NCBI RefSeq assembly: GCF_900107665.1
Contig: NZ_FNQT01000004.1
Location: 1-64,000, forward strand
Direction of reading: 5' to 3'
Length of the DNA: 64,000 nucleotides
Source of the DNA: Haloplanus vescus
Lineage (GTDB): Archaea > Halobacteriota > Halobacteria > Halobacteriales > Haloferacaceae
The notes beneath the pieces were generated by a model. That model had not been told where the DNA came from. It did not search any database and saw nothing but the letters and a program-made list of their open reading frames with translations. Shown in pieces: positions 13,331-45,449 of the stretch; position 1 is the first letter of the stretch, and each line of letters opens with the position of its first letter. Both the position numbers and the translations under genes were made by a program.

Positions 13331-13372
13331 TTAACCAACAAACAGCCCCGGAAGATCCGGTGTGTTGGTTAA
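13331..13372. repeat. Dispersed bipartite site, copy 1
   Basis: TTAACCAACA at 13331-13340 and TGTTGGTTAA at 13363-13372 are a perfect 10-base inverted pair with a 22-base spacer. It lies upstream of the SRAP gene and before the TnpB element end. The ~310 bases from 13263 to 13576 contain no gene. Confidence 0.9.
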
Positions 13373-13534
13373 CTGAGCAGCAGCGGAAATAGTCAATCGT
13401 CCGCAAAACACGACGACCGAGATTGGGCTGCCATCTATCTCGTGGCTTTCCTGAAACGCGGAAGCGCCACGGCGAAGCGTATCGGGACTGTGGACAACTA
13501 GTAAACTCGCCCAGATCGCGCCCATTGACATCCT

Positions 13535-13554
13535 CCCATCCTTAGGGGAATGGG
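13535..13554 (-). ncRNA. Terminal hairpin of the TnpB element, possible guide-RNA 3' end
   Basis: CCCAT at 13535-13539 pairs with ATGGG at 13550-13554, just downstream of the TnpB stop on its own strand, and the flanking GAGGATGTCAA-type end is typical of haloarchaeal IS1341 right ends. In characterised IS605-family elements the 3' part of tnpB plus the right end encode the omega RNA, whose scaffold hairpin lies here and whose guide follows. The exact RNA ends are not determined. Confidence 0.5.
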
Positions 13555-13576
13555 ATTCCTCCGGTGGGGATATTGG

Positions 13577-14893
13577 CTATGCCGCACCCACGGAGGCAAG
13601 TTTCCCCGTGCGAGTACTCCGGTTTGTGCGCTCCTCGTTGGGACTGGCCCTCTCGGGAGAGCGTGAGAACTCCGACCAAATGTGGTCGTCCCACTTGAGG
13701 CGCACAGGCCGTGCCATCGACCCGACGTCCAGATTTACGCCAGCCTGTCGTTCGAGGAATGTCCGTGACGCACCGAGGTCGGCGTGCCCCTCGTAGCCAC
13801 ACGAACAGCGGAACACGTTGCCGTCCCGCTCCGTCTTCTCTCGTTCGCCACACACTGGACACTCCGCCGTCGTGTATGCTTCTGAGCGGACTTCGACCGT
13901 GATACCGTACTCCTCGGCGGTCGTGGCGAGACGATCGATGAACGAGCGATACGCCCAGAACTGGTGGGTTTTCTCGTTCACTTCCGCGCTCCAGTAGTCC
14001 ACCAGCACGTCCGTAAGGTCGCCGACGTACACCGTATCGACACCTTCGTCGTATAGTCGCTCGATCAAATTCCGCACGAGAGCGTCTTGGGCGTGGTCGC
14101 GGCGGCGCGTTCGCTTGCGGTACAGGGATCGAATCCGCTGACTGCTGTTTCGGCCCTCTTGGAGTTTCGATTGGAGCCTCGCGATTTCTTCGGTGGTTTC
14201 ACGGAAGCGGGCGAACAGGTCGCGTCCCTCGTAGAGATACTGCTGGCCGGTGGTGGTGGTACAAGCGACGAGGTTGTTCGCGCCTACATCCAGAGCAGCC
14301 GATTCGTCGGCTAGTGGTGAATCCTGTCGAGAATCCGGGACAGTGACAGGCTGAATGGCTCTGAACGTGTCGTCGATCTCGTCGAAGTACAGTTCCAATC
14401 GGCCCTGTTCGCCGTCCCACTTGGGAGCGCCGCAGACTTCGAGCCGTAGGCGGTCGTAGTAGCCAAGTCCGTACTCATCTTTCAGGTCTTGGCCGACCGG
14501 GATTTCGAGGCGACTCCGTTCACCAGTTTCGATGGTGTAGGAGTCATTACGGATGTACGTCCGCAACTCTCTACCGGCCTCCTCGTTGCCCCAGTAACCG
14601 GGCGGGGCGGCGTCCTCGCCATCTTCGCAGGCGGCGAAGAACGACCGCCACGCCTCGCTGTTCTTACGGATGACTTGTTGGGCAGTAGCGGAGCCGAGGA
14701 CACCGACGTACTGTTTTCGGTAGTCGGCAGTATCCCATACGGAGTCGCCGTCGAAGAAGTTCTGACGGCGCTCGTAGTTCAGTTCGTTCCACAGGCTGGC
14801 GGAGGCGTCCAACAACTCGCGGAGCAGTTGCTCATCCTGCTCGGAGAGCGGTCGCACCGCGAACGTATTGGTTCGCCTCACGACAACAGACAT
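13577..14893 (-). CDS. tnpB: TnpB-like RNA-guided nuclease, IS1341 type
   Basis: With the ATG at 14893 (MSVVVRRTN) the protein has 438 residues. The RuvC-like core shows motif [16 protein letters not shown], a region [10 protein letters not shown] where most TnpB proteins have a catalytic Glu, the zinc ribbon CPVCG with [14 protein letters not shown], and the final Asp in that last string. The second acidic position reads GDL, so catalysis could be altered; this variant is common in haloarchaea as far as I recall. There is no tnpA (Y1 transposase) nearby, so the element is IS1341-type and depends on a helper or is immobile. A 47-codon gene diverges from it 38 bases upstream. Confidence 0.9.
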
Positions 14894-14931
14894 TTGTTTC
14901 TGAATGTCTAAATGTCTTTTGGACACAAACG

Positions 14932-15075
14932 ATGCGACCGAACATCGACATCTCGCACACACTGAATGGGCGGGTGAAAGACTACGCCGAACAAGAGGAC
15001 AAGCACCTCGAAGAAGCCTATCAAGAGATTATCGAAGCCGGTCTAGAGGCGGTGGAAAATCCAGACAAGCCGTAG
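14932..15075 (+). CDS. Small TnpB-associated protein, ribbon-helix-helix-like
   Basis: ATG at 14932 opens a 47-codon frame: [20 protein letters not shown], then helical [16 protein letters not shown]. Short proteins of this form occur next to haloarchaeal IS1341-type tnpB genes and have the pattern of a ribbon-helix-helix regulator (a strand then two helices); the assignment is by pattern only. It diverges from tnpB with a 38-base gap that should hold both promoters, so it could repress the element. The 226 bases after it, up to 15301, contain no gene I can support. Confidence 0.6.
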
Positions 15076-15301
15076 CACCTGGATTGTGGGGCCGTGTTGT
15101 CGCTCAGACCCAGCCTGAAAGGATGGGCCCACTCGCTACGAACCATCCGAACCAAGGTCATTCTGGAAGCCTTCTCGGAAACCTTCGGACGGTCGCCAAA
15201 ATCCAGCGCCTGAGTCCGATTTACCGCATTACTCAGTCATTCCTTGGAAATGCGGAAGCGACACGCCGCGGCTTATCTGGTACGTGGCCATCTATTGGAG
15301 T

Positions 15302-16249
15302 ATGCCCGACCGCTCCACATCGACGTCGAACCGATTGGCGGTAGACCAGCCAACACGGAGCGCTGACCGCAACCAGAATCTGGCTAATCAAGCCGACCCC
15401 GCGACGGACGGAATGCTGCTTCCCTCCCTTGAGGACGGTATAACTCTCCTTGATGTCGAAGGTGATCGGGGTGTACCGATTCTTCAGTCATTGGTACTCG
15501 ATCATCTCCTCTTACATGACGGGCCCGCTTTCTGGATTGACGCAAACGGCCATGCGACGACGGCCACGCTGACGCAGATAGCCCCCAGTCAACGGTTGCT
15601 CAACCGAATCCACGTGGCACGCGGATTTACCGCCTACCAGCACTACGGTGCCAGCTGTGATCTCCCGACGGCAGTGAACAAGTCGATCCAGATGTCCACC
15701 ACCGACGCCGGCCCGGCCGGTCGACAACCGAGTCGCGACGAGGACACGTCGTCCCACACGCCCGCTCTCATCGTCGCGCCGGCCGTCGACGCCCAGTACC
15801 GCGCCGACGATACCCTCGGCGAGACTCACGCGAAAACCCTCCAGGCCCGAACCCTCGCCCGGCTAGTGACCTACGCCGAGGGGTATGACATCCCGGTGCT
15901 CGTTACGCGAAACGAACGAAACGAATTCACCGAATCAATCGCGACGGTCGCCGACCACCACCTGGAGTGCGAGCAAACCCGGATGGGGCCGCGGGTCGTC
16001 GGCGAGGACTTCGAGACGCTCGTCTATCCCGTCGACGACGGCGCGTACTACCAGACGACGTTCGCGTACTGGCGGCAGCTGCTCGCGGCACGCGCCACGC
16101 AGGTCGGCGTGGAACCGACGACGCCGGCGCCGTCGACGCCGACTCCCAAAGGCGTCGGGACGGGCGTCACAGCTGACGGTGAGACGGTGTCGGCTACCGC
16201 GAATCCCCTGCTCGATGCGTGGACCGCGACCGGAACAGGAGGTCGATAG
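15302..16249 (+). CDS. RecA/RadA-like paralogue with degraded P-loop
   Basis: The 315-residue product begins MPDRSTSTSNRL. Residues ~40-200 follow a RecA-fold pattern: ITLLDVEGDRGVPILQSLVL in place of the usual GPPGSGKT loop, FWIDANGHATTATL as the next strand, LNRIHVARGFTAYQHY, and a Walker B-like strand PALIVAPAVD. No lysine sits at the ATP-binding position, so ATP hydrolysis is doubtful. The C-terminal ~60 residues are Pro/Thr-rich and disordered. It stands two bases before the small charged gene and the family B polymerase. The arrangement resembles bacterial ImuA-ImuB-DnaE2 mutagenesis cassettes in logic, though not in sequence. An upstream GTG at 15284 is possible. Confidence 0.75.
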   Translation: MPDRSTSTSNRLAVDQPTRSADRNQNLANQADPATDGMLLPSLEDGITLLDVEGDRGVPILQSLVLDHLLLHDGPAFWIDANGHATTATLTQIAPSQRLLNRIHVARGFTAYQHYGASCDLPTAVNKSIQMSTTDAGPAGRQPSRDEDTSSHTPALIVAPAVDAQYRADDTLGETHAKTLQARTLARLVTYAEGYDIPVLVTRNERNEFTESIATVADHHLECEQTRMGPRVVGEDFETLVYPVDDGAYYQTTFAYWRQLLAARATQVGVEPTTPAPSTPTPKGVGTGVTADGETVSATANPLLDAWTATGTGGR

Positions 16250-16251
16250 CG

Positions 16252-16557: not shown

Positions 16558-18725
16558 CGATGTCGTTCAGTATCGACTTTCTGGACGACGGCCGCGTCCT
16601 GGAGTGGGAGGCAACTGCCGACAGCGCCGTGGCGACCGAGCGCCAAGACTACACCCCACGCTTCTACGTCGCCGCTCGCGACCCTGATGCCGACCTCGAC
16701 CTCACGACACTCCAGTCGGTGTACGACCAGCACCCGGACGTCGTCGCGACCGAGATGGTTGCGCGACGCCCCGGCTTTCGACGAGACGAGGAGGCCGTTC
16801 TCGCAGTCGACGTTGCCCACATCGATCGCGTCACTCCACTCGCCCGGCAGGCACGCCAGCTGTCGGACTATCCAATCGGGGATCTCGCCTGTTTCAACGT
16901 CGACTTCTCGCGAGAGTTCCGGTACTGTCTGGAGACCGGCGCCGATCCGACGCCGGCGAGCGAGCTCTCGACGCTCCGTCTCAGCGTCCCGGTGACCGAA
17001 ACGAGCAACGACGTCTATGGGGAACTGTCTGTCGCCGGCGACACCGTCACCGGCTCGCCGACGGATATCCTGACCGCCGTCCAGGAGGTGCTCGAAGCAC
17101 ACGATCCGGACGTCCTGGTCTGCTCAACCAGCGAGATCGTCCCGACGCTGTACAAGATGGCGACGGACGCCGGCGTCGGCGACTTCTCGCTGAGTCGGTG
17201 GCCGGACGTCGACTACCAGCAGCTTGCGAGCCGGTCGACGTACTCGAGCTACGGTCGCGTCGGTCACTCACCGGCGCGGTACAACGTGCCCGGACGGGCG
17301 ATCATCGACGAGTCGAACACGTTCTTCTACGGGGAGACGAACCTCGAGGGCGTCATCGACCTCGTGTCGCGCTCGAAAAAGCCCGTCCAGGAGCTCGCGT
17401 GGGCGTCAATCGGGAACGTGCTGACGGCGATCCAGATCTGCGAGGCCCACGACCGCGGTGTCCTCGTCCCGTGGAACTCCTGGCGCCACGAGTTCTTCAA
17501 GCCGATGGGGACGCTCCACGACGCCGACCGTGGCGGCTTCATCTTCGCGCCCGAGGTCGGGCTTCACGAGAACGTCCACGAACTCGACTTCTCCTCGTTG
17601 TACCCGAACATCATCTGTACGCGGAACGTCTCACCGGACGTCATCCGGTGTGACTGCCACAGCGACCGCGACGACGTCCCCGGCCTCGGGTACTCGATCT
17701 GCGACGACCGGGGCTACCTTGTCGACGTGCTACAGCCGATCATCGACGCGCGCGACGAGATCAAGGCGGCCATTCGTCGCGAGAAGGAACGGAACAACCC
17801 CGACGAGGACCGGCTGGTGGAACTCGAGGGACGGTCGGGAGCGCTGAAGTGGATCCTCGTCGCCTGCTTCGGCTATCAGGGATTCAGCAACGCGAAGTTC
17901 GGCCGCATTGAGTGCCACGAGGCGATTAACGCATTCGCTCGCGAAATTCTGCTGACGGCAAAACAGCAACTGGAAGCCGGCGGCTGGCGGGTCGTCCACG
18001 GCATCGTTGACTCCATCTGGGTGACCCCGGACCCTGACGTCGACGACGAGAACCGCGAAGACCTCAAAGCACTCGCGACGGCAATCACGGAAGAGGTCGA
18101 GATCCGGCTCGAACACGAAGCCCACTACGACTGGGTGGCGTTCGTGCCGCAGCGCGAGAGCGACGCCGGCGCGTTGACGAAGTACTTCGGGAAGGTCGCC
18201 GGCGACGACGATTTCAAGATACGCGGTATCGAAGCCCGGCAGCGCTCAACCCCACCGTTCATCGAGGACGTCCAGCGGGACTGTCTCGAACGGCTCGGTG
18301 CGACTAAATCTCCGGACACCGTACTCGACTGTCTTCAGGACGCGATCAAGCGCCTCCACGCTGGAACGGTGCCGGTCGAGCAGCTCGTCGAACGGAATCG
18401 TGTCTCCAAGCCGCTGGAAGGGTACACGCAGAATACGCAGAACGTGGCGGCGCTGAAGCGGGCTCGGGACCAGGACCTCGCCATCCACCCAGGACAGGAC
18501 ATCGAGTACGTGGTCGTCGACGACGAGAAGAGCTCGCGAGAGCGGGTCGCGTTAGCCCACGAAGAGATAGAGTCGTACGATGCGTCGTACTACGAGACGC
18601 AACTCGTCAGAGCTGTCGAGAGTGTGCTGGCACCACTTGGCTGGGATCGGATGGAGATTCAACGCGAGATCGCGGAAACTCGGGAAACGGACTTGGACGC
18701 CTTCACCGAGATTGAGAGTGGTTAA
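16554..18725 (+). CDS. polB: Family B DNA polymerase, exonuclease-inactivated (PolB2-like)
   Basis: The 723-residue protein has polymerase motif A ELDFSSLYPNII near residue 343, motif B KWILVACFGYQGFSN near 431 (usual form K-x3-NSxYG) and motif C GIVDSIWV near 483 (usual YGDTDSV). The catalytic Asp of motif A and the second Asp of motif C remain, but the first motif C Asp is Ile. The N-terminal exonuclease motifs are gone: NVDFSREF and LVCSTSEIVPTLY lack the expected acidic pairs. Archaeal PolB2 enzymes are known to have altered motifs and are thought to work in lesion bypass. Start choice is GTG 16554 (four-base overlap) or ATG 16560. The stop codon lies inside copy 2 of the dispersed bipartite site. 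Confidence 0.9.
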   Translation: MTMSFSIDFLDDGRVLEWEATADSAVATERQDYTPRFYVAARDPDADLDLTTLQSVYDQHPDVVATEMVARRPGFRRDEEAVLAVDVAHIDRVTPLARQARQLSDYPIGDLACFNVDFSREFRYCLETGADPTPASELSTLRLSVPVTETSNDVYGELSVAGDTVTGSPTDILTAVQEVLEAHDPDVLVCSTSEIVPTLYKMATDAGVGDFSLSRWPDVDYQQLASRSTYSSYGRVGHSPARYNVPGRAIIDESNTFFYGETNLEGVIDLVSRSKKPVQELAWASIGNVLTAIQICEAHDRGVLVPWNSWRHEFFKPMGTLHDADRGGFIFAPEVGLHENVHELDFSSLYPNIICTRNVSPDVIRCDCHSDRDDVPGLGYSICDDRGYLVDVLQPIIDARDEIKAAIRREKERNNPDEDRLVELEGRSGALKWILVACFGYQGFSNAKFGRIECHEAINAFAREILLTAKQQLEAGGWRVVHGIVDSIWVTPDPDVDDENREDLKALATAITEEVEIRLEHEAHYDWVAFVPQRESDAGALTKYFGKVAGDDDFKIRGIEARQRSTPPFIEDVQRDCLERLGATKSPDTVLDCLQDAIKRLHAGTVPVEQLVERNRVSKPLEGYTQNTQNVAALKRARDQDLAIHPGQDIEYVVVDDEKSSRERVALAHEEIESYDASYYETQLVRAVESVLAPLGWDRMEIQREIAETRETDLDAFTEIESG

Positions 18726-18762
18726 CCAACACTATCGAGGTATCGGGAGGTTTGTTGGTTAA
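18722..18762. repeat. Dispersed bipartite site, copy 2
   Basis: TTAACCAACA at 18722-18731 and TGTTGGTTAA at 18753-18762 are perfect inverted arms with a 21-base spacer. The polB stop codon TAA (18723-18725) is part of the left arm. It marks the boundary between the polymerase cassette and the origin region. Confidence 0.9.
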
Positions 18763-18806: not shown

Positions 18807-19869
18807 CACACACCCCTCGTCCAGAGTGAAAACCAATCGGAGAGTGGGGTGAGGTCCACGGGAAACGGGGGTTCTTGTGGGGAGAAAGCAACAGGAATCG
18901 CGGAAAGACTGCTTGAGACGGGAGAACACGGAGGAAATGGAACAGCGAACACGAGCAGCGGTTCGAAACCACCCGGACGAATGCCGCCTTCGTCCTCCTT
19001 CTTGTGCTGAATGCACTTGGGGAGTGGTAGGAGGTAGGTAGTAATAAAACCTCTAGGTAATACTATGGAGATTGGTATGTTTAGAGGATCTTCGACTGTG
19101 TGACGACTGCTGTTCGAGGGATACTCGTCTCACGTCTTGTGATTTCGGTACTTTCCAGCCGACTCGTCGTGTGGTTTCCGCCGGGTCAACCGAGGGACTC
19201 TCGTAGCGTTTCACTCTGGACGAGGGGTGTGGGGGTTAGATTTCATCGTCCGCGTATTATGAGACGTTGAAGGAAAATCGTCATTCTGACTATTCGCCAA
19301 CCAGCGAACCGGCATCAAAGCCGAAATCGGGATTGGTATCTCCCGATCTCCCTCATCACTCGGAATCAAGATACCCGATCCCGACAGTTCCGATTGTACC
19401 CTGCTTTGCTTCGGCTGGAGATCTGACCTGTGTCTTCACTCTTGATTGGGGGTGCCGACGAACGCTCGTCAGCATCACTCGAGGTTCACACTTCACTCCT
19501 GCTCGTCACACCTACGCTTTCACTCTGGACGAGGGGTGTCTGCCGTGCGTCAGACGTCCAGGGTCGATGTGTCCTCTCATAGAAATGATTGATTACCAGG
19601 TTCGGGAGATACACTCTGGACGGGGGGTGTCGTCTCAACCAAGTACGCTGCTCCCGTATGGAGGGCTATTCACTCTTGACCAGGGGTGTGTCAAACCCGC
19701 TCCAGTCTGGCGTTTTCACTCTGGATTGGGGGTGCCCGTCTGCGGCGGTAACTCTCGCTCCGAATCCGATTTCACTCGGGACCGACTCGACCCTTTGTGA
19801 GGATGATACGCCAGCGACAAAACATCAGAAGACGACCATAGCCCGATTTACACTCTGGTCGAGGTAGCC
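18807..19869. other. Candidate replication origin, upstream array of origin boxes
   Basis: Boxes built as TTCACTCTGGA, two or three bases, then AGGGGTGT occur near 19209-19231, 19518-19540, 19609-19631 and 19668-19690, with variants ending GGGGGTGCC near 19435 and 19714 and a weak copy near 19847. One copy at 18807-18833 is inverted. The gap from 18763 to the orc1/cdc6 start at 19909 has no gene. Variable spacing, a G-run at one end and the adjacent initiator gene fit an Orc1-bound origin; the inverted outer copy could bound a DNA unwinding segment around 19030-19080, which is AT-rich. Confidence 0.8.
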
Positions 19870-19908: not shown

Positions 19909-21186
19909 ATGGCTGAGGAACCGTCCCAACTCTCTGACTTCGACGGCCGCTACGAGGATCCCGCTGACGATCCCCTCTTTGACTTTGATGAAGACGACCC
20001 CGACCGAGCCAACATTTTCGCTCGAAAGGAACTGCTGAAGGTTGGCCACGTCCCTGAAAGCGGCCGTATCGTCGGCCGAGATGGCGAGATCAAGGCCGTT
20101 GCTGCTGAACTCAGGCCGATCGTTCGTGGCGATCCGCCCAACAACGTGATTATTTACGGGAAAACGGGTACGGGGAAGTCGCTCGTTGCCCGTCACGTCA
20201 CAGAACGAGCCCGCCGAGCCGCGGAGTCGAACGGTGTGTCCGTCGGCACGGTCTACGTCGACTGCGCGCAGCACAACACACAGACACGCGTCGCGAGGAC
20301 GGTGACTCGTTCACTCAACGAAACGGACGAGACTGACTTCGATATTCCACGCGCAGGGATTGGCAGCGGGGAATACTACGACTATCTCTGGGAGATTCTG
20401 GATACTGCCTACGAGTCAGTCATCATCATTCTCGACGAGGTGGACCGACTCGATGACGATGATATTCTTATGCAGCTCTCGCGGGCTCGCGAATCGGGGA
20501 AAGCGGATTGCCACCTGGGCGTCATCGCAGTCAGCAACAAGATCGAGTATCGCGACCAGCTGAACGAACGCGTCAAGTCCAGTCTTCGCGAGGAGGAGTT
20601 CGTCTTCCAACCCTACGACGCGAATCAGCTGCGCGAGATTATGAAGCACCGACGGGACGCGTTCCACGATGGCGTTCTCTCTGATGATGTGATCCCGCTG
20701 ACGGCGGCACTAGCTGCCCAAGAACACGGTGACGCCAGAAAGGCCATCGAAATTCTTCGTCACGCCGGCGAACTGGCCGAACGAGAAAACGTCGAGACGG
20801 TCGTCGAGGAACACGTTCGCGATGCCCAGGAGTGGGCTGAAATCGATCGCTTCGAGGAGCTGCTACGCGGGTCGACGACACAGGTCAAATTCATCCTCTA
20901 TTCGCTCGCGCTGCTCACCGAAGAGAATCCGAACGAGGATGGATTCTCTACCAACCGAATTTACGAACGGTATCAAGCGACGACAGAGAAGGCCGATGCG
21001 AAGACTCTCAGCGAGCACCGCGTCTACGAGCTGTTGAAAGAGCAGGCGTTCCTCGGTGTCGTTGAATCTACTCGGACCGGGGGTGGCCGGGGTGAAGGCA
21101 GTTATCTCGAGCACCGGTTGGTTCAGGATACCGGCATCGTGCTGAAATCTGTCCTCCGGGATAGCCGGCTGGAAGACCTGGCCTAG
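19909..21186 (+). CDS. orc: Orc1/Cdc6-family replication initiator (second copy)
   Basis: With ATG 19909 the protein has 425 residues, the normal Orc1 length. Motifs: ANIFARKELLKVGHVPESGR at the N-terminus, Walker A YGKTGTGKS near 84, Walker B VIIILDEVDRLDDDD near 176, sensor I LGVIAVSNKIEYRD, and a sensor II region around EHGDARKAIEILRHAG. The C-terminal winged helix begins near residue 320 (TQVKFILYSLALL). It is flanked on both sides by origin-box arrays, so it is the likely main initiator of this replicon. It differs clearly from the 11529 copy, which suggests two separately acquired replicators. Confidence 0.95.
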   Translation: MAEEPSQLSDFDGRYEDPADDPLFDFDEDDPDRANIFARKELLKVGHVPESGRIVGRDGEIKAVAAELRPIVRGDPPNNVIIYGKTGTGKSLVARHVTERARRAAESNGVSVGTVYVDCAQHNTQTRVARTVTRSLNETDETDFDIPRAGIGSGEYYDYLWEILDTAYESVIIILDEVDRLDDDDILMQLSRARESGKADCHLGVIAVSNKIEYRDQLNERVKSSLREEEFVFQPYDANQLREIMKHRRDAFHDGVLSDDVIPLTAALAAQEHGDARKAIEILRHAGELAERENVETVVEEHVRDAQEWAEIDRFEELLRGSTTQVKFILYSLALLTEENPNEDGFSTNRIYERYQATTEKADAKTLSEHRVYELLKEQAFLGVVESTRTGGGRGEGSYLEHRLVQDTGIVLKSVLRDSRLEDLA

Positions 21187-21202
21187 CTCCCGTTTCGGTC
21201 GC

Positions 21203-21496
21203 TGACCACACCCCTGATCACGAGTGTATCTCTCGATACGTCGGAAACGTGGGGTGGGGGATCCGAGGTCGTCTTCTACTCCCAATAATCGACTTTGGCC
21301 GGGTGACGAAACGACGGAAACGTGGGGGGTGTGATCCCCTCGATCGTGGCTGCGTTCCCTCCACCGACCTCCAGTTACGACGGAAACGTGGGGTGGGTAT
21401 TTTTTCTCCGAGTGTTACCTGTTTGGACTGACCGGACCCATTCACACTGAGGGGTGTGGGGTGGGTTGAACCCATTCACACTCTGGGGGGTGTCCT
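21203..21496. other. Candidate replication origin, downstream array of origin boxes
   Basis: Three direct repeats CGGAAACGTGGGG, each followed by a G/T-rich tail, start near 21242, 21315 and 21381, about 66-73 bases apart. They are followed by two copies of CCCATTCACACT with a GGGGTGTG-type tail near 21438 and 21471. An inverted box, CACTCGTGATCAGGGGTGT on the minus strand, lies at 21205-21227. The first set has the GAAAC core of classical haloarchaeal boxes, while the second resembles the upstream array. The gap from 21187 to 21549 contains nothing else. Confidence 0.75.
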
Positions 21497-21549: not shown

Positions 21550-21873
21550 CTACTCGTCGGGACTGACGGGGCCTTTATACTGGGAACGAACTTTTTCGCC
21601 TTCTCGCCACTGCCAGTAGTAGTAGCGGTTGTCGTTAATCTCCTTGATCGTGATCGTGGCCTTCGCCGGGACGTCGTCCGGCAGATCGTCGGGACGTTCT
21701 TCAATTTCGCTTTCATCTGAATCCTCTTCGAGACGTGCCTCGCCAGCTTTGTGCTCAGCTAGCTCTTCAGCGTAGCGGGCAACGCGCTGGAGCTGCTCAG
21801 AAGAGGACTCGTTGAGCGTATTGACGAGGTCTGTCGGGAGTTCCGCCGGCGGCGTCGGTGGCTCGTAGGACAT
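21550..21873 (-). CDS. Small protein with a beta-rich C-terminal domain
   Basis: The 107-residue product starts MSYEPPTPPAELPTDLVNTL at 21873. A helical N-terminal half (LQRVARYAEELAEHKAGEAR) leads through an acidic linker to ATITIKEINDNRYYYWQWRE and GEKVRSQYKGPV. That ending is a recurrent haloarchaeal plasmid motif with an aromatic RYYYW strand, probably nucleic-acid binding, but I do not assign a family. Copy 3 of the dispersed bipartite site begins 16 bases upstream of the start, which suggests direct control. It may modulate the neighbouring replicator. Confidence 0.7.
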   Translation of the reverse strand: MSYEPPTPPAELPTDLVNTLNESSSEQLQRVARYAEELAEHKAGEARLEEDSDESEIEERPDDLPDDVPAKATITIKEINDNRYYYWQWREGEKVRSQYKGPVSPDE

Positions 21874-21889: not shown

Positions 21890-21930
21890 TTAACCAACAT
21901 AACCCGCTAATCCATAGTTTTGTTGGTTAA
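21890..21930. repeat. Dispersed bipartite site, copy 3
   Basis: TTAACCAACA at 21890-21899 and TGTTGGTTAA at 21921-21930, spacer 21 bases, both arms perfect. It lies between the 21873 gene (minus strand) and the SNF2-type helicase gene (plus strand). Confidence 0.9.
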
Positions 21931-26470: not shown

Positions 26471-26511
26471 TTAACCAACAAAGTGCGTACCGGTATAGAT
26501 TTGTTGGTTAA
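26471..26511. repeat. Dispersed bipartite site, copy 4
   Basis: TTAACCAACA at 26471-26480 and TGTTGGTTAA at 26502-26511, spacer 21 bases, both arms perfect. It lies between two convergent gene ends, so it is not a simple promoter element for either gene. The rest of the 345-base gap 26233-26577 shows no gene. Confidence 0.9.
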
Positions 26512-27076: not shown

Positions 27077-27895
27077 TTACACCTGTGGTGGAAGCTGACC
27101 ATCTGGACGTGGGACCTGCCCCTGTTTGATTTCGTGATCGACGCGACGCATATGTTTGCAGCCCCCGTCTGGAGCGCGCTGCTGCCAATCGGAACAGGTA
27201 CAGGATTGCCCGATGATATCGACTTCGTATCGATTTCCGGACGCCGCTTCGACTTCGTAGCGACCACCCTTGGCGAGTAGGGAGACGGTCATCGCTTCCT
27301 CGACAGCGCGCTTTGTGCGGGGCTCGAGATCATCAGCTGAGGTGGAGCCGTCTGATACGAGCATTCGGTCGCGGACGTCTCCCGCCTGTCCGCCGTCTGG
27401 AGCGACAGCGCTTCCAATCTCCTGAATCCGGTTTTCCAAGAGTGCTTCCGCAAGGTTCCCCTCCGGCCAGAGAAAGTGGACTTCTCGTCGCTCTCGATGA
27501 TCGTAGGAGCCACAGGTGGCGGCATTCCCTTCCCAGACTCGCCATGCCCTCAGCGCGGCCATCACGGTGAGGATGCCCCGAGGAACCGGTGTTTGGTCCT
27601 CAGGGTAGAACACTCGAAAGCGCGTACAGTCGTCCTGTGGCGGTACTGTGTCCCACCACTCGACGTCGGACCCCCAACTGTCGTACATCGCTTGATCTCG
27701 GCCGTATCCGACCGTCACGCCATCGACCTGCGGGACCTCCTCGGGGATCGCGTTGGCATCGCCTTCGAGGAGTCGGAGTACAGCGTACCGGAGATACTCG
27801 TGTGTAGGGGAGTTCGTGGTTTGGGCGATCTGGTCGTACTGCTCTGCGACTCGCTCCGCTTCTGCCAGAACGGCTCTGAGATGTCGCTCTGTCAT
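27077..27895 (-). CDS. SWIM zinc-finger protein
   Basis: The 272-residue protein ends in a SWIM-type finger: SCTCSDWQQRAPDGGCKHMRRV (shown here by its Cys at positions ~234 and 236 and the later Cys-Lys-His). SWIM fingers bind DNA or proteins. The first 170 residues contain conserved aromatic patches (WGSDVEWWDTVPPQDDCTRF) of unknown fold. The leader carries a 24-base hairpin ending 20 bases before the start, followed on the far side by an A-tract and copy 5 of the dispersed site. SWIM proteins often team with SNF2 translocases, and one lies 2 kb away, but they are in different transcripts here. Confidence 0.8.
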   Translation of the reverse strand: MTERHLRAVLAEAERVAEQYDQIAQTTNSPTHEYLRYAVLRLLEGDANAIPEEVPQVDGVTVGYGRDQAMYDSWGSDVEWWDTVPPQDDCTRFRVFYPEDQTPVPRGILTVMAALRAWRVWEGNAATCGSYDHRERREVHFLWPEGNLAEALLENRIQEIGSAVAPDGGQAGDVRDRMLVSDGSTSADDLEPRTKRAVEEAMTVSLLAKGGRYEVEAASGNRYEVDIIGQSCTCSDWQQRAPDGGCKHMRRVDHEIKQGQVPRPDGQLPPQV

Positions 27896-27914
27896 AATTC
27901 GGTGAGGCTGGAAT

Positions 27915-27938
27915 GCGCCTCCACCCCTCGGCGGGCGC
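27915..27938 (-). repeat. Leader hairpin with GGGTG loop (SWIM gene)
   Basis: GCGCC at 27915-27919 pairs with GGCGC at 27934-27938. On the minus strand the loop contains AGGGGTGG. It lies 20 bases before the SWIM start at 27895 and is preceded in the transcript by TTTTTT and copy 5 of the bipartite site. Confidence 0.7.
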
Positions 27939-27946
27939 TCAAAAAA

Positions 27947-27987
27947 TTAACCAACGCACCAGCCAGATATCCCGACTTGTTGGTTAA
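27947..27987. repeat. Dispersed bipartite site, copy 5
   Basis: TTAACCAACG at 27947-27956 (last base differs from consensus) and TGTTGGTTAA at 27978-27987, spacer 21 bases. It lies between the SWIM gene and the AbiEii gene. Confidence 0.88.
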
Positions 27988-29763: not shown

Positions 29764-29804
29764 TTAACCAACAGAATCGGGGTGTGGAACCGTGCGTTGG
29801 TTAA
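29764..29804. repeat. Dispersed bipartite site, copy 6
   Basis: TTAACCAACA at 29764-29773 and CGTTGGTTAA at 29795-29804 (first base differs), spacer 21 bases. It lies between the ArdC-like gene end at 29809 and the AbiEi start at 29684. No leader hairpin accompanies this copy. Confidence 0.88.
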
Positions 29805-29808
29805 GGAT

Positions 29809-30741
29809 TCAAGCGCCGTCTTCGGCTACGTCGATGAGCTCTTCTGCTGTGGAACTGATCCGGTCGAGACGGTCGCGAACGATCTCGGGATCGTCCGACT
29901 CCCACGCGGCCAAGTAGAACGCCGACCCGCTGGTATCTAACCCACAGTACCGCCCGACGACGTACGCGACCGCCTCGGCTTCGACTTCGCGTTTCGACCG
30001 CTCGGTGTCGTCGTCGACGTCGAAGTGGAGCAGGGCGTGGGCGTACTCGTGGATCAACGTCCGCGCAAGGTCGGCATCGTTCTCCCGATCACGCACCTCG
30101 ACACGCGGTTGCATACCGACGAGACTCAGCTGCTCGCAGATGCCTTTCGCCTCGCCGTGCGTCCACTCCGCTTCCGGAATAATCCGAACCGTCACGCCAA
30201 GTTCGTCGGCGGCTCCAGTCAGCCGACCGACGAGGTCGCCGGCGTCCCCGGTTGCTTCCGTGTCGAGATCAGGAAGCGGCTCGCCTTCGGTCTGAGAGAC
30301 GTCAAACACCGGCGCGGGCTTGAACCCGACCAGGCCCTCGGACCACTCTTCAGGCGACGTCTCGTCGTAGTCACAGTCACTGTCCTCGTGGTAGCTCGGC
30401 GAGTTCTCGCACTCTGGACACTGCTTCGTGATGATCGGCGCCCAGATCCAGATGGCCGACTCCCCCTCCGTGACGTGGCGGTCGAACTCTTCCTGCCACG
30501 TCCGGTAGCCCGTCACCCGGGTCGCCTCGGGACACTGCCGCTTGATGAGGAGCGTGTTCCGGTAGGAGTAGTCGTGGAAACGACTCTGGACGTCGAGCCA
30601 CTCCTGGAACTCTTCGCTGGCCTGCGCGTCGTCGACGCCGGCGACGAGGTCGTCGATCCACTGTTCGATGGTGCTGTTCATCTCGTCGGATCGTGTGTCG
30701 GTCTGCTCGAAGGAGACCGACGAGTCACTAGTCGTAGCCAT
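29809..30741 (-). CDS. ArdC-like antirestriction protein with metalloprotease domain
   Basis: The 310-residue product begins MATTSDSSVSF (ATG 30741) with a good SD, GGTGA, ten bases upstream. Residues ~30-110 form an ArdC-type N-terminal domain: WIDDLVAGVDDAQASEEFQE, then FHDYSYRNTLLIKRQCP and GYRTWQEEF. The C-terminal half is an ImmA/IrrE-like metallopeptidase with HEYAHALLH near 235 and the downstream EVEAEAVAYVV. A four-Cys cluster appears between the two parts. ArdC proteins bind single-stranded DNA during conjugative entry and block host restriction (established for plasmid pSa), so it should protect the incoming replicon. Confidence 0.88.
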   Translation of the reverse strand: MATTSDSSVSFEQTDTRSDEMNSTIEQWIDDLVAGVDDAQASEEFQEWLDVQSRFHDYSYRNTLLIKRQCPEATRVTGYRTWQEEFDRHVTEGESAIWIWAPIITKQCPECENSPSYHEDSDCDYDETSPEEWSEGLVGFKPAPVFDVSQTEGEPLPDLDTEATGDAGDLVGRLTGAADELGVTVRIIPEAEWTHGEAKGICEQLSLVGMQPRVEVRDRENDADLARTLIHEYAHALLHFDVDDDTERSKREVEAEAVAYVVGRYCGLDTSGSAFYLAAWESDDPEIVRDRLDRISSTAEELIDVAEDGA

Positions 30742-30786
30742 TGTGTTCACCGAATCAAGGTCACGGCGACTGCGTCTGTTCAGACC

Positions 30787-30808
30787 GCGCCGCACCCCTC
30801 AGGGGCGT
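30787..30808 (-). repeat. Leader hairpin with GGGTG (ArdC gene)
   Basis: CGCC at 30788-30791 pairs with GGCG at 30804-30807; the minus strand reads CCCCTGAGGGGTGCGG within the element. A T-run (TTTTTT) precedes it in the transcript. It lies 46 bases upstream of the ArdC start. Confidence 0.6.
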
Positions 30809-30828: not shown

Positions 30829-31176
30829 TTAGCGGAGTTCGTGGCGTTCGTCAGCGAAGCCGACCGTGACGAGGTACTCGAGGAACTCGTCGAAGCGCTC
30901 GACGTCGCTGGGTGTGTCAGTCGCAAGGTGACGCGTCCACTCGATGGCCCACTGGAAGGCGGGATCTGTCCCGCCCTTGCCGTGTAGATACCACCACCGG
31001 GCCGCTTTGAGAACCACTATGGGATTCGTCGGCGGCTGCTCACCGGCGAGCCCACGGGTGATGGACTCGATTTCGTCGGGGACGTCGGCGGAATCGACCT
31101 CCGCTGATTGCGTGTTGTCGATATCGACCGGGATCTCGTCGACCGAGACGTTGTCGGGACTCTGTTGTTGACTCAC
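30829..31176 (-). CDS. Small protein of unknown function, ArdC operon
   Basis: This 115-residue protein starts with GTG at 31176, supported by SD GAGGTGA six bases upstream. The first 45 residues are acidic and disordered. The remainder is helical with a Trp/Tyr-rich stretch, VLKAARWWYLHGKGGTDPAF and WAIEWTRHLA, then VERFDEFLEYLVTVGF. No family recognised. The context is a run of minus-strand genes with the ArdC-like gene next downstream and the DUF6610-like gene upstream, each with its own leader hairpin. Confidence 0.75.
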   Translation of the reverse strand: MSQQQSPDNVSVDEIPVDIDNTQSAEVDSADVPDEIESITRGLAGEQPPTNPIVVLKAARWWYLHGKGGTDPAFQWAIEWTRHLATDTPSDVERFDEFLEYLVTVGFADERHELR

Positions 31177-32249: not shown

Positions 32250-32277
32250 GACTGAACTCGCGAGGCGGCTGCTGGGC

Positions 32278-32299
32278 GCCCCGCACCCATTCAGGGGGC
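32278..32299 (-). repeat. Leader hairpin with GGGTG loop (DUF6610-like gene)
   Basis: GCCCC at 32278-32282 pairs with GGGGC at 32295-32299, loop of 12 bases reading CTGAATGGGTGC on the minus strand, with TTTTTT just before it in the transcript. It lies 29 bases before the start at 32249. Confidence 0.7.
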
Positions 32300-32323
32300 T
32301 GAAAAAACGGGACACTCTCAACG

Positions 32324-32365
32324 TTAACCAACACGAGGTGGTAGCTGACTCCGGTTGTTGGTTAA
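32324..32365. repeat. Dispersed bipartite site, copy 7
   Basis: TTAACCAACA at 32324-32333 and TGTTGGTTAA at 32356-32365, spacer 22 bases, both arms perfect. It lies between the 32375 gene end and the DUF6610-like gene leader. Confidence 0.9.
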
Positions 32366-32662: not shown

Positions 32663-33823
32663 TCAGGCCATCGCGTCCTGGAACCGCTCACGAAGCGCGT
32701 CCTCACGTTCCTCGAACTGGTCGACCTTCTCCTGTAGATCGTCGCTGACGCGCTCGATGCTCGCGAGTGCCCGCTCGCCGGCGAGCGACGCCTGCGACCC
32801 GTCGTCGCTGTCGGCCTCCAGCTGCTCCTCGTAGGCTCGCTCGACCCGCCCGATGGTGCCCTCCGGGTTGAACAGGATGTCGTTGGCCGTGCGGACGTAG
32901 CCGTCCAGTGACGCACCCTCCTTGCCCTGGAAGAAGTGAGTGAGCGCGTACGTGGCGCCGGAATGGAGCGTCCACATATCGATCTCGACGGGAGAGGCCG
33001 CGTTGGCCTCCGCATCACTCGCGGCACGCTCGGCCAGGTAGTCCGGGAAGCCCAGCAGGCTGTAGAACTCCGTGACGGTGAACGGCAGGTCTGAGAAGTC
33101 GAGGTCGATGTCCTGTGCGTCACGGATGAACTCGAAGAGGTCGTCGGCGACGAGTTCGACCTGTGCGAGGAGTTCCTCCCACCAGCTCCGGAAGTTCCGC
33201 ACGTCGCCGACGTGTTTGATGACCTCCTTGTCGGTGAGCGAGCGCATCGTGTTGGAACAATAGCCGTCCTGAGCGAACCCCTCCACGTAGACGGCGTGCT
33301 CGCCGAAGAAGTCGTAGCCCGACGTGACGCCCATCGTGATCGGGTCCGACCGGCCGGGGAGGCGCACCTCGAGGCCGTCGAACATGATGTCCATATGGAC
33401 CTCGCCGCCGCCCCGGTAGCGACGAATCTCGCCGAACATCACGTCACCCAGCGGCGTTCCGTCGATAGTCTCCTCCCGAAGGACCTCCTCTAGAGGGCCG
33501 TAGACGTCGACCGGGTTGATGATCGAGTACGAGTCGGTCGGAATATGGAACAAGGAATCCGTTTCGGCGTCCTCCTCACGGGCCTGCTCTCGAGCGCGAC
33601 TCGGCTCGACGAGCGCGTTGAACCGCTCCGTCTCGACCCACTCGTCGGTGTACGGATTCTTGTAGGCCACGGTCGACTCGACGGCCTGCGGGAGGTCGCG
33701 GATCGCCTCAGCGAAGCTCACGGTGTGTTTGCCGCCGTGACGCTGACGATACCACTCGGGTAGTTCGGTGTCGGTACGTCCATCGACGCCAGCGAAGATG
33801 GTTCTCGACTCTGGGTCTTTCAT
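32663..33823 (-). CDS. DUF932-like plasmid protein
   Basis: The chosen start ATG 33823 (MKDPESRTIF) has an ideal SD, GAGGTGA, five bases upstream; a GTG/ATG-like start at 33868 would add 15 unrelated residues. The 386-residue product has the DUF932/LGT-like layout: FHIPTDSYSIINPVDVYGPL, IRRYRGGGEVHMDIMF, VRLPGRSDPITMGV, FAQDGYCSNTMRSLTDKE and a helical C-terminus ending in a coiled coil. DUF932 proteins are frequent in phages and plasmids, and their biochemical role is not established. A hairpin and copy 8 of the bipartite site precede it. Confidence 0.75.
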   Translation of the reverse strand: MKDPESRTIFAGVDGRTDTELPEWYRQRHGGKHTVSFAEAIRDLPQAVESTVAYKNPYTDEWVETERFNALVEPSRAREQAREEDAETDSLFHIPTDSYSIINPVDVYGPLEEVLREETIDGTPLGDVMFGEIRRYRGGGEVHMDIMFDGLEVRLPGRSDPITMGVTSGYDFFGEHAVYVEGFAQDGYCSNTMRSLTDKEVIKHVGDVRNFRSWWEELLAQVELVADDLFEFIRDAQDIDLDFSDLPFTVTEFYSLLGFPDYLAERAASDAEANAASPVEIDMWTLHSGATYALTHFFQGKEGASLDGYVRTANDILFNPEGTIGRVERAYEEQLEADSDDGSQASLAGERALASIERVSDDLQEKVDQFEEREDALRERFQDAMA

Positions 33824-33874
33824 CGTAGTCACCTCGACGCAGGAACGCTCATCGACGGCTGCCTGCATCGTCTC

Positions 33875-33915: not shown

Positions 33916-33956
33916 TTAACCAACATTGACCCAGGCAACAGCCGACTGTTGGTTAA
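33916..33956. repeat. Dispersed bipartite site, copy 8
   Basis: TTAACCAACA at 33916-33925 and TGTTGGTTAA at 33947-33956, spacer 21 bases, both arms perfect. It lies between the methyltransferase-HEPN fusion gene end and the DUF932-like gene leader. Confidence 0.9.
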
Positions 33957-41909: not shown

Positions 41910-41939
41910 TTCGAAAAAACTCGCTTCGCGAGATCGCGT

Positions 41940-42362: not shown

Positions 42363-42370
42363 CCAATCAC

Positions 42371-42388: not shown

Positions 42389-42436
42389 AGTCCTTTCTGC
42401 CCCAGAAAAACACCATCTGCTTCGACGCAAATCGGC

Positions 42437-43099: not shown

Positions 43100-43134
43100 T
43101 TGAACACTCACCTCGCAGGGCGACCCACGACTGG

Positions 43135-43160
43135 ATCGTCCCGCACCCCTCCCGGGGGAT
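43135..43160 (-). repeat. Leader hairpin with GGGTG (43099 gene)
   Basis: TCCC at 43139-43142 pairs with GGGA at 43156-43159, extended by ATC/GAT at the ends. On the minus strand the element reads CCCGGGAGGGGTGCGGGACG through the core. It lies 36 bases upstream of the start at 43099. Confidence 0.6.
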
Positions 43161-43168
43161 GAACAACG

Positions 43169-43549
43169 CTACTCGTCGATCGGTTCGGGGGAACTGAGGT
43201 CCGCGTAGAGAACTTCGCCGTCGCGAACGACGTACCGCTTCGCCAGCACTGGGAAGCGGCACTTCGTAAACCCCGCTGTCTGGATGTCGAGTTCCTCGTC
43301 AGCTTCGAGGTGGTCGGCGAGTTCTCGCAAGAATTCGTGGGTCACGATGCCGCCTTCGTAGTCCGGGAGGCCGTTCTCGCGCGTCTCGTACACTTCGAAA
43401 TCGTCGAATCCCCAGATGGTGAGTTCGCCTTCGTCGGTGACCTCCCAGCTGAGCGTTCCGAAGCAGTAGCTCTCACAGAGTTCGCGAACTGCCTGTGGAT
43501 CCGATACGATTGCGCCGGTTGACGTCGTCGCAGCTTGTAGTGTCGCCAT
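43169..43549 (-). CDS. Unknown protein, 126 residues
   Basis: The start at 43549 gives MATLQAATTSTGAIVSDPQA. The product alternates strand and helix: VRELCESYCFGTLSWEVTDE, LTIWGFDDFEVYETREN, FLRELADHLEADEELDIQTA, ending RYVVRDGEVLYADLSSPEPI. This is a compact halophilic domain of unknown function. It is in the minus-strand run, with a hairpin 18 bases upstream. Confidence 0.7.
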   Translation of the reverse strand: MATLQAATTSTGAIVSDPQAVRELCESYCFGTLSWEVTDEGELTIWGFDDFEVYETRENGLPDYEGGIVTHEFLRELADHLEADEELDIQTAGFTKCRFPVLAKRYVVRDGEVLYADLSSPEPIDE

Positions 43550-43566
43550 CTCTGGGCTCGCGGGAA

Positions 43567-43590
43567 GCCCCGCACCCCTCTTGGGGGGTG
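43567..43590 (-). repeat. Leader hairpin with GGGTG (43549 gene)
   Basis: GCCCC at 43567-43571 pairs with GGGG within 43583-43588. The minus strand reads CCAAGAGGGGTGCGGGGCTT in the core. It begins 18 bases upstream of the ATG at 43549. Confidence 0.65.
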
Positions 43591-43635
43591 ACAAACCGAC
43601 ACTGGAAGTGCCCCTGGCGTCGACGGCGATGACGA

Positions 43636-43824
43636 TCAGTCGTCTGTTGGGGCGTCTGGTCCGCTCCCGTCCTCTGGTTGCGTGAGTAGGCTCACTTCTT
43701 CCAGGAGGTCTCTTGCAGTCTCGACTCGCTCTCGATCCGCGTCGTCCAACCGCTCGACGTCGAGGCGGCTGAGATTGCTGAGTACACGATGCATCCGGTA
43801 GCCCTGTTCGACTTGCTGATTCAT
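43636..43824 (-). CDS. Small helical protein, unknown
   Basis: The start at 43824 gives a 62-residue product beginning MNQQVEQGYRMHRVLSNLSR. It forms two helices with an acidic, disordered tail (DGSGPDAPTDD). The helical pair (LDVERLDDADRERVETARDL) could be a dimerisation or regulatory motif. No family recognised. It is the first gene of the minus-strand run counted from the promoter side. Confidence 0.65.
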   Translation of the reverse strand: MNQQVEQGYRMHRVLSNLSRLDVERLDDADRERVETARDLLEEVSLLTQPEDGSGPDAPTDD

Positions 43825-44112
43825 CGGTAGCGCCTCACCACTCGCCGGCGCGGATAGACACTCCACGTGACTGTCATCGGCGCATCAGCGTCGCCACTAG
43901 TGCTCATCGCGACGCGTTGCCGCTAGGAGGTCACTCTCACACCCGTCGTCCAGCCTACTGTCCGGGATGTGGGATGCCTCGCCGGTCGGCCGTAGTTCCT
44001 CAAAGTCAGAATATCGGTCGTACATCGGTTGGCTCACAACTTCTGTCGGTATCGCATTTCAACGTCCGGACGCCTTCGCTCGCATCGTTCTCTTGATTAT
44101 GCGAGACTGTAC

Positions 44113-44123
44113 AAACATATATG
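44113..44123 (+). promoter_or_regulatory. Candidate TATA element for the DUF7342-like gene
   Basis: AAACATATATG ends 39 bases upstream of the ATG at 44162. An SD, GAGGTG, lies six bases before the ATG, so the gene has a short leader. The rest of the 337-base gap 43825-44161 contains no gene, although a plus-strand frame runs through it. Confidence 0.4.
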
Positions 44124-44161
44124 GGAGCAGGGCGCGAACACTGTCCCAAGAGGTGCCAACC

Positions 44162-44713
44162 ATGACCGAATCCTCGCGAGATGGGGTCCAATCGTGGACT
44201 GAGTCGATGAGCGCCCGCGACCGCATTCGGGCGGTCGCCGAGTCACTTCGGGAACCCCGCTCAGTTAACTGGATCAGCGAGCAGGCCGACGCTGCCTGGA
44301 GCACGACCAACGAGGAACTTCAGGATCTCGTCGACCAGGGCCAGTTGCGTCGCGTTGAGGCTGGCGAGACCACGCGCTACCAGCCAGACTACACGCGACT
44401 GCTCTTCGAGGAGATCCGCACGCTCATCGAGGAAAACACCCGCGAGGAGCTGCGGAGCGAATTGGCTGCGATAACCGAGGAGATCGAGGAGTGGCAGGCA
44501 ACCTACGACGTCGAGACGTGGGAGGAACTTGAACAGTCGCTCGCCGACGGCGATCTCGCAAGTGCCGAGCTCCGCGAGCGCCGCGATGTCATCGCGTTCT
44601 GGCGTGAGAACGAGGAGGATCGTCGCCTCATCAAGCACGCACTGGAACTCTACTCCGACGTCGAAGCCGCCCGCGAGCAGCTGACCGACGTGGCTGACCG
44701 CGCCACGAGCTAA
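44162..44713 (+). CDS. Winged-helix protein, antitoxin-like (DUF7342-like)
   Basis: The start at 44162 (MTESSRDGVQSWTESM) is supported by SD GAGGTG. The 183-residue protein has a winged helix-turn-helix in residues ~25-80 (SVNWISEQADAAWSTTNEEL, then DLVDQGQLRRVEAGETTRYQ) and long acidic helices afterwards (LIEENTREELRSELAAITEE). It precedes the 44731 gene by 17 bases. I recall this family as DUF7342. The arrangement matches a DNA-binding antitoxin in front of a small toxin of the TumE group. Confidence 0.8.
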   Translation: MTESSRDGVQSWTESMSARDRIRAVAESLREPRSVNWISEQADAAWSTTNEELQDLVDQGQLRRVEAGETTRYQPDYTRLLFEEIRTLIEENTREELRSELAAITEEIEEWQATYDVETWEELEQSLADGDLASAELRERRDVIAFWRENEEDRRLIKHALELYSDVEAAREQLTDVADRATS

Positions 44714-44730
44714 TCCTCCTCTCTCACAGA

Positions 44731-45219
44731 ATGATCTTTCTTGCCGGTCGCGACCGCTATACACAGCGGACCCTCCTCCGCGACGTTCACGACCGATTGA
44801 CGAACCAGCCAGGGTGTGAAGAGGTCCGCTATCGCCCGTCTCGACGCCGACCCCGGTACGTCATCGCGGATGTCGATCCGACGACGTTCCTGAGTAACTC
44901 GTACGACGCGGCGACAGCACGACTGGAGATTCGTTTCTGGTACCCCGCTGGCGTCGACCACGAATACTACCGCATCAACTGGATCGAACCGGACCGAAAT
45001 CTGATGCTCGGCTTCCACCAGGACGCCGACCATCCGGACCTTGGGCCCTGTCACATCCAACTCAATCACGAAGACACGTCTGTCAACCGGCATAGCGCGA
45101 CGTTTCTCGATGCGCATCCACTCGCCGTCCTCGATGACCGACTCCAGCAGTTCCCGCCCGCGCTAGCTGCGATTCACTGGAAGAATGGAGCACCCTCGCT
45201 CCCTACCTGGCCCGTCTAG
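44731..45219 (+). CDS. Small protein, possible TumE-like toxin
   Basis: The 162-residue product starts MIFLAGRDRYTQRTLLRDVH. The core has ATARLEIRFWYPAGVDHEYY, INWIEPDRNLMLGFHQDADH and PDLGPCHIQLNHED. Conserved His/Asp residues in a strand-rich setting resemble TumE-type toxins (formerly DUF6516), which are read from memory and pattern only. It follows a winged-helix gene at 17 bases, as in toxin-antitoxin operons. Copy 9 of the dispersed site lies 190 bases downstream. It is possibly a ribonuclease. Confidence 0.65.
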   Translation: MIFLAGRDRYTQRTLLRDVHDRLTNQPGCEEVRYRPSRRRPRYVIADVDPTTFLSNSYDAATARLEIRFWYPAGVDHEYYRINWIEPDRNLMLGFHQDADHPDLGPCHIQLNHEDTSVNRHSATFLDAHPLAVLDDRLQQFPPALAAIHWKNGAPSLPTWPV

Positions 45220-45408
45220 ACAGCGAGTTCATCGAACCTCTGGTGATGCGTCCAGGCCATGGTCGGCGTGACGTTTCCGGACTTGGCGATGTCACGGTGC
45301 GTTACCTACTCCCCCTGTTCCCGCCCCGCTTTGTAGAGACAGGCCGCTGCGAACCTGTCGAATGAACGCCCGCCGTGACTGACCTCGGACTTGCGGGTAC
45401 TCACCGTG

Positions 45409-45449
45409 TTAACCAACAGAAGCCATCTCTATCGGAGACTGTTGGTTAA
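45409..45449. repeat. Dispersed bipartite site, copy 9
   Basis: TTAACCAACA at 45409-45418 and TGTTGGTTAA at 45440-45449, spacer 21 bases, both arms perfect. It lies between two convergent gene ends. This is the last copy in the window; none appears before 13 kb or after 45.5 kb. Confidence 0.9.

Follow-up and report, generated by a model that had tools for sequence, protein, structure and literature searches.

A near-invariant 41-base double site on haloarchaeal plasmids and viruses, with a small plasmid protein as its candidate reader

The stretch of DNA analysed here, the first 64,000 nucleotides of contig NZ_FNQT01000004.1 of the haloarchaeon Haloplanus vescus (hereafter the window), contains nine dispersed copies of a 41-base double site, in which two arms form an inverted repeat around a variable spacer (Table 1). 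Seven copies have the exact form TTAACCAACA-N-TGTTGGTTAA, and all nine, found where a preliminary description made from the letters alone had placed them, have perfect 9-mer arms; the sites at 27947 and 29764 have a single altered base at the tenth position of one arm. In every copy, 32 or 33 bases separate the starts of the two arms, and the 10-mer arm pattern does not occur in any of 100 dinucleotide shuffles of the window. Such sites recur, nearly invariant, on haloarchaeal plasmids and viruses, and the evidence points to one small uncharacterised plasmid protein, encoded beside the third site, as their reader.

The sites had been described as confined to a core between 13 and 45 kb. This is true of the window, but the replicon (contig C4) has a tenth site at position 81178, and nine further ones are located on a second replicon, C5. 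The genome contains 29 sites in total, 20 on C4 and nine on C5, the other eight contigs having none. In C4 (201,092 bp), the sites and genes recur at +104,006 bp, with ten sites per unit of about 104,006 bp; hence C4 looks like a circular plasmid of approximately 104 kb that has been assembled nearly twice.

Table 1. Double sites and selected genes of the window.
Feature	Position	Strand	Setting
Site 1	13331..13372		upstream of the SRAP gene
Site 2	18722..18762		over the PolB stop codon, PolB / Orc1 region; the order PolB-site-Orc1 recurs
Site 3	21890..21930	-	proposed operator in the binder's own promoter; AAAACTATGG at ~21912-21921 (-)
Site 4	26471..26511		SNF2/HHH genes on one side, PadR-like gene on the other
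Site 5	27947..27987		upstream of gene 27077-27895 (backbone cluster 5)
Site 6	29764..29804		ArdC-like gene on one side, AbiEi/AbiEii cargo on the other
Site 7	32324..32365		upstream of the run DUF6610 gene, gene 30829-31176, ArdC-like gene
Site 8	33916..33956		upstream of gene 32663-33868 (backbone cluster 12)
Site 9	45409..45449		after gene 45470-46339 (cluster 47); genes 44207-45219 separate the site from downstream backbone genes
SRAP-domain gene	12576..13265	-	behind site 1
Orc1/Cdc6 gene	19909..21186	+	adjoins the candidate binder gene; replication module flanked by sites 18722 and 21890
Candidate binder gene	21550..21873	-	107 aa, MSYEPPTPPAEL...KATITIKEINDNRYYYWQWREGEKVRSQYKGPV
ArdC N-terminal domain / M78 peptidase gene	29809..30795	-	last in the run behind site 7

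Exact sites are present in 270 of 391 Halobacteria genomes (one per species) and in 68 of 86 genera, 2375 sites in total with the doubled C4 counted twice, while the reversed pattern is absent from every one of the 391 genomes. Among public genomes, no fewer than 119 stretches contain them, most with haloarchaeal titles, and so do 60 stretches of contigs classed as viral. The viral loci, scanned with a free spacer of 20–26, yield 62 unique sites with arm-start distances of 31 (three sites), 32 (16), 33 (36) and 34 (seven); overall, this distance is 31–34 in nearly all sites. Degenerate copies are scarce: 247 pairs are exact, nine have one mismatch and twelve have two, the spacing being unrelated in many of these twelve. 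The count is biased to exact copies, for which most loci had been fetched. The 40 kb of the virus ChaoS9 that were read contain three sites, at ChaoS9_240, at the stop of orc1 and at the end of ChaoS9_395. In the open-licence literature, the site strings TTAACCAAC and GTTGGTTAA were not found in any haloarchaeal context.

Clustering of the locus proteins by similarity produces one family of about 108 codons, present in 40 loci, to which the 107-aa protein of the window belongs; we call it the candidate binder. A site lies at most 200 bp upstream of it in 37 of the 40 loci, the three others being L117, cut by the locus end, L116, a relative of the DUF6788 type with a different repeat, and L074. 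The site ends 9–20 bp before the binder start in 35 loci; for two viral homologues, this distance is 1 bp. Among 333 unique sites, part of them from loci chosen around the binder (eight unplaced sites and three inside genes are omitted), all 86 sites with the binder as the nearest gene start are 0–29 bp from that start. Moreover, the spacers of 69 unique binder sites have a promoter-like consensus, AAAACTATGG, at a fixed place between the arms, and no element of this type is seen in 167 other unique spacers. Read as the core promoter of the binder gene, this element suggests autorepression; judging from its position, the binder should repress its own promoter.

The preliminary description had listed a plasmid-encoded DNA-binding protein among the possibilities and had proposed that co-occurrence of the sites with one gene would name it. 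This suggestion is well supported, as the test names the 107-aa candidate. A profile made from 37 homologues was run on the same 391 genomes, a homologue being called strong at E ≤ 1e-28, a cut-off chosen after the values were known. Strong homologues are present in all 155 genomes with at least six sites, in 47 of 58 with three to five, in 14 of 57 with one or two, and in one of 121 with none. The control, DUF6610, a frequent neighbour of the sites, is found in 101/155, 19/58, 8/57 and 13/121 genomes of the same four groups. In the siteless exception, G114, the binder copy looks decayed: it has ATA for ATG, an arm is one base short, and the genome has a second, interrupted copy whose site contains one mismatch.

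The protein and the site also vary together. Divergent homologues have divergent inverted repeats of similar spacing directly upstream, with arms of the types CTAACCAAC (L185, L188, L203), TTAACCAAG/CTTGGTTAG (L186) and TTACCCCAC (L248), and the upstream arms of DUF6788-like relatives are of the CCTTATGTAAC or TGTGCAACA type. An inverted-repeat scan with no preset arm finds a repeat upstream of 119 of 142 distinct homologues, a set that includes loci picked for having sites; at least four of these repeats (L180, L187, L296, L307) look decayed or fortuitous. The CTAACCAAC...GTTGGTTAG class is itself dispersed, occurring in 31 of the 391 genomes with up to 15 sites per genome, the reversed control giving none. 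None of the 24 unique CTAACCAAC sites in the fetched loci is inside a called gene (one at a locus edge is omitted). The matching protein subgroup (E ≤ 1e-23) is present in 15 of 18 genomes with at least five CTAACCAAC sites, compared to two of 20 contrast genomes (G269, G385), this contrast being partly circular, as three of the 15 positives gave the query and the cut-off was chosen after the values were known. The exceptions are G102 and G169, scoring only about 1e-18, and G021, in which we found no binder homologue; its five CTAACCAAC sites (one of them in L281) have similar A+T-rich spacers. The CTAACCAAC class thus appears mostly to follow its own protein.

Two further arrangements were seen among the relatives of the binder. 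Upstream of the homologue in L194, the two copies of the half-site point in the same direction instead of being inverted, at a distance of about 19 bp. The homologues in L191, L193, L196, L198, L201, L207 and L208 have no upstream inverted repeat and all come from genomes of a single family (f4); possibly, they are domesticated copies.

The AlphaFold2 (AF2) model of the 107-aa protein consists of two helices followed by three strands, with a mean predicted local distance difference test (pLDDT) value of 74.6 and a predicted template modelling score (pTM) of 0.42. In a comparison with solved AP2 / integrase arm-type domains, which have a three-stranded sheet, 3rmp and 3jtz were obtained only at Foldseek E > 1, the best VIA Z of 3.6 being to other folds. 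The best match in a sequence search of solved structures is a glycosyl transferase (E = 0.029), and the best PHROGs match of the window protein has E = 0.11. No ParB family is among the 21 Pfam families listed for the 37 family members at E up to 1. DUF6788 (PF20586) matches one of the 37 members, that of L116, at 7e-10; the window protein itself has no match to it at E ≤ 1.

The binder family is present in 216 of 72,556 plasmid records, and the 60 listed are all haloarchaeal. The homologue on pNRC200 is VNG_RS11815, annotated as "hypothetical protein"; at this copy (L280, ~19950-20000) only the right arm of the site is present, the left arm being missing. The ChaoS9 homologue, ChaoS9_240, is annotated as "uncharacterized", and the same word is used for the homologues in the ChaoS9 and PhiH1 papers. 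The ChaoS9 record states that there are homologues in phiH1 and phiCh1, and a tblastn search with the ChaoS9 protein matched two ChaoS9 records only.

The spacers were characterized after thinning to less than 70% identity, which reduced 167 spacers of 23 bp to 127, and 91 spacers of 24 bp to 61. Their A+T content peaks at the dyad and again about 9 bp away on each side, with minima in between, and the power of this approximately 10-bp A+T periodicity was reached in none of 1000 within-spacer shuffles. Hence the earlier statement that the spacers are not conserved is correct for their sequence but not for the A+T phasing, which is kept. Combined with TTAA in each arm, the phasing places an A+T centre about every 9.5 bp, five in all across the 41 bp. 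Both the arm spacing and the phasing agree with the earlier proposal that the two half-sites face the same side of the helix, as expected if the 41-bp site were curved round a protein touching both arms from one face.

The setting of the sites was compared in 60 regions of at most 20 kb around the binder from other genomes. Backbone genes 3 (ArdC-like) and 5 are found in order in 31 of the 60. In many regions, not in all, sites precede the run of DUF6610, gene 6 and ArdC, as well as gene 12 and gene 5, and separate the binder from a divergent HVO_2833-type regulator, and PolB from Orc1. Genes of the type IV secretion system (T4SS) type on C4 encode a TrbL/VirB6-like protein (5.9e-16), a protein similar to the type IV coupling protein (T4CP; 2.9e-5, above its cut-off) and a TraG-like ATPase (5.4e-5, below its cut-off).

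We consider it fairly probable that the sites are DNA targets of the 107-aa protein, which would be a plasmid-wide, self-repressing regulator of backbone genes. An oligomer would grip one arm of 9–10 bp with each of two recognition units, both on the same face of the bent 41-bp stretch. The binder would shut its own promoter, the TATA-like element being between the arms, and, bound to the remaining sites, which head or delimit runs of backbone genes, it would keep establishment and maintenance genes in check, the putative targets being the ArdC-type anti-restriction gene, SRAP, the DUF6610 run, the toxin–antitoxin (TA) cargo and the replication module. In a newly entered cell, before any binder has been produced, these genes would be expressed in a burst and silenced afterwards. 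Binding, the oligomeric state, repression and the establishment burst are what we infer from the sequences; the site-headed conserved gene runs and the presence of T4SS-type genes on the same plasmid are counted in support.

Such a scheme has bacterial parallels. Members of the ParB/KorB class are ParB-type CTPase/helix–turn–helix (HTH) proteins. The haloarchaeal sites resemble their operators in being dispersed and nearly invariant. KorB of RK2 combines partition and repression in one protein (PMC5577506), and its operator OB occurs at several places, 4–10 bp or 45 to more than 1000 bp upstream of promoters (PMC11790492). However, KorB is a ParB-like CTPase clamp, and its OB has 16 bp (PMC11790492), whereas the candidate is 107 aa long and Pfam finds no ParB domain in it. 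StbA of R388 is a self-repressing DNA-binding protein whose 9-bp motif is also present in further establishment-region promoters; it represses P-ardC, P-orf7, P-orf12 and P-orf14, and the negative feedback in R388 leads to a burst of expression after conjugation (PMC3098194, PMC3937220). The candidate would share with it self-repression and dispersed operators at establishment genes, including ardC. On the other hand, the stbDRs of this bacterial plasmid are two sets of five 9-bp direct repeats with 2-bp spacing, and the haloarchaeal site is a single inverted repeat with arms of 9–10 bp starting 31–34 bp apart. In haloarchaea, repeated intergenic elements with a regulatory function are known from halovirus HF2, where repeats of 58 and 29 bp have promoter activity and are kept among related viruses (PMC8707807), but the motifs given for them are unlike the 41-base site. 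A similar arrangement is that of the DUF6788 relatives, such as the one in L116, which have their own long-spaced upstream inverted repeat of the CCTTATGTAAC type; the window protein differs from them in its lack of a PF20586 match and of the cysteines. Searches of the open-licence literature turned up no plasmid-wide regulator of this kind, and nothing on DUF6788. The best reading by analogy would be an archaeal counterpart of the KorB/StbA plasmid-wide repressors in logic, with both the protein and the site different.

Several observations weigh against this regulatory reading. The sites show no preference for promoter-type gaps. In the window, as described earlier, six are upstream of minus-strand genes, one is over the PolB stop codon and two are between convergent ends. 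Across the window and the loci fetched by the pattern alone, 234 sites were found, and after omission of 46 at edges and seven unplaced, with three inside called genes set apart, 178 intergenic sites remain: 110 in tandem, 37 in divergent and 31 in convergent gaps. This is close to the make-up of the intergenic space in those loci (63% tandem, 19.5% divergent, 17% convergent). The preliminary remark that a plain promoter operator does not explain all copies is thus positionally right, the convergent sites being as numerous as the intergenic space predicts. For the two convergent sites of the window, at 26471 and 45409, the adjoining genes are absent there in other plasmids (e.g. L260 and L269; L217 and L263), which suggests an explanation for their odd setting. 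Further, in ChaoS9 one of the three sites is at a promoter and the others are at gene ends, and the distance from the arm to the apparent TATA element, assessed by eye, ranges from about 0 to more than 50 bp. A strong homologue is missing in 54 of the 270 site-bearing genomes. Of these, 43 have one or two sites, perhaps as remnants or because a replicon was lost. When the threshold is relaxed to E ≤ 1e-5, homologues turn up in 250 of the 270 site-bearing genomes and in 59 of the 121 siteless ones; among those inspected, some are relatives with other upstream repeats or none. The profile comes from homologues beside sites, which favours this family. The predicted fold has no significant match, with no PDB entry at E ≤ 0.001 and the best VIA Z of 3.6. 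Finally, MOB-suite calls all 216 binder-bearing plasmid records non-mobilizable.

The indifference of the sites to promoter orientation leaves room for an additional role in segregation, architecture or boundary formation. As an alternative to regulation, the same protein bound to dispersed sites might pair, condense or tether plasmid copies, with autoregulation incidental, as in partition proteins. The sites cluster near the binder gene, which is consistent with this: on C4, nine of the ten are no more than about 24 kb away from it, and on C5, five of the nine are no more than about 9 kb away. The nearly invariant arms and the spacer phasing of the bent-DNA type agree with it too. However, C4 and C5 reside in one cell and share sites, each also has what is presumably a ParA-like gene, as judged from a P-loop motif (on C4, a small gene of cluster 16 adjoins it), and up to nine family matches per genome would be awkward for a centromere that sets incompatibility. 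A centromere as the sole function was set aside, identical sites being present on two replicons of one cell. We regard segregation as the less likely explanation, though the strongest of the rivals.

Less likely still is a boundary or insulator, where a bound site would act both ways to keep adjoining transcription units apart, and each cargo module would retain its edge site. Here the position of the sites relative to gene ends is relevant. In the 333-site set, with genes called by a simple codon-usage script and start codons approximate, a stop codon is within 20 bp of the site in 114 of 275 stop-side distances; for non-binder genes, a site is within 20 bp of the start in ten of 282 cases and at 20–39 bp in none. 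The junction between genes 3 and 5 fits as well. Out of 36 distinct junctions, 14 have no cargo, and these mostly contain one exact site (ten; two have a degenerate site and two none). The 15 with TA cargo (nucleotidyltransferase or AbiE) contain two exact sites in 14 cases, and one exact and one degenerate site in the remaining case. However, the seven junctions with other cargo have one site each. The short flank beside gene 5 is kept while the spacer varies. T5 tracts after stops, a test of a terminator or roadblock role, are found at two of 36 convergent sites compared to 25 of 404 convergent gaps without a site, that is, with no difference, and such a role was rejected. At tandem sites T-tracts are commoner than at control gaps (30 of 67 versus 75 of 637), but this excess can stem from a T-run in the leader of the next gene and is not counted as support.

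A further reading is site-specific recombination, also named in the preliminary description, or cassette exchange at the sites. Homology between plasmids with different cargo does end at the site arms, and TA cargo brings an extra site. Still, such breakpoints also arise when cargo simply lands in intergenic space, Pfam and PHROGs find no recombinase domain in the binder, and the spacers differ between copies, so that there is no common crossover core. Hence the proposal is not supported, and we deem it very improbable. The integron attC core is RYYYAAC / GTTRRRY; the site differs from it, as GTTGGTT of the site has T where the core needs a purine. Least probable of all are single-stranded hairpins in conjugative entry, for although the 10-bp arms are complementary, T4SS-type genes are present and the genes at 27 to 44 kb are mostly on one strand, the near-fixed, A+T-phased loops suit bending of double-stranded DNA.

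Some other features of the window deserve mention. In several backbone gene leaders, some of them without a site, a common T-run is followed by a GC-rich hairpin directly before the start: in the window at 27896-27946, 32250-32323 and upstream of 40885 (all on the minus strand), and in L218 upstream of 3894, 4647, 9911 and 13016 (plus strand). On the coding strand, seven of 223 leaders scored on two plasmids have this element, all in the ArdC region, compared to two of 3000 random stretches; two further T-run hairpins are at ~42411 and ~41920 (minus strand). It could be a shared promoter or leader element. Two distinct families of short repeats, CTCTGGACGAGGGGTGT-like and GGAAACGTGGGGTGGG-like, noted by eye at 19140-19860 and 21200-21480, flank the Orc1 gene and may be a replication origin. 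Rfam produces a single sub-threshold match at 11–48 kb (E = 0.45).

A broader description may be offered, tentatively. The sites and their reader may form a class-wide archaeal nucleoprotein system, with one small family, several coevolving specificity classes and bent three-turn double sites on plasmids and viruses; its protein would be both a replicon-wide regulator and a boundary or segregation factor, and the sites would serve as a shared punctuation code tolerating the exchange of cargo between replicons. The sites mark the positions of plasmid backbone and cargo, and the protein is one that public records of a megaplasmid, pNRC200, and a virus, ChaoS9, name only as hypothetical or uncharacterized. 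With a candidate binder, a 41-bp target and two or more dispersed specificity classes in hand, archaeal plasmid regulation and maintenance become directly testable.

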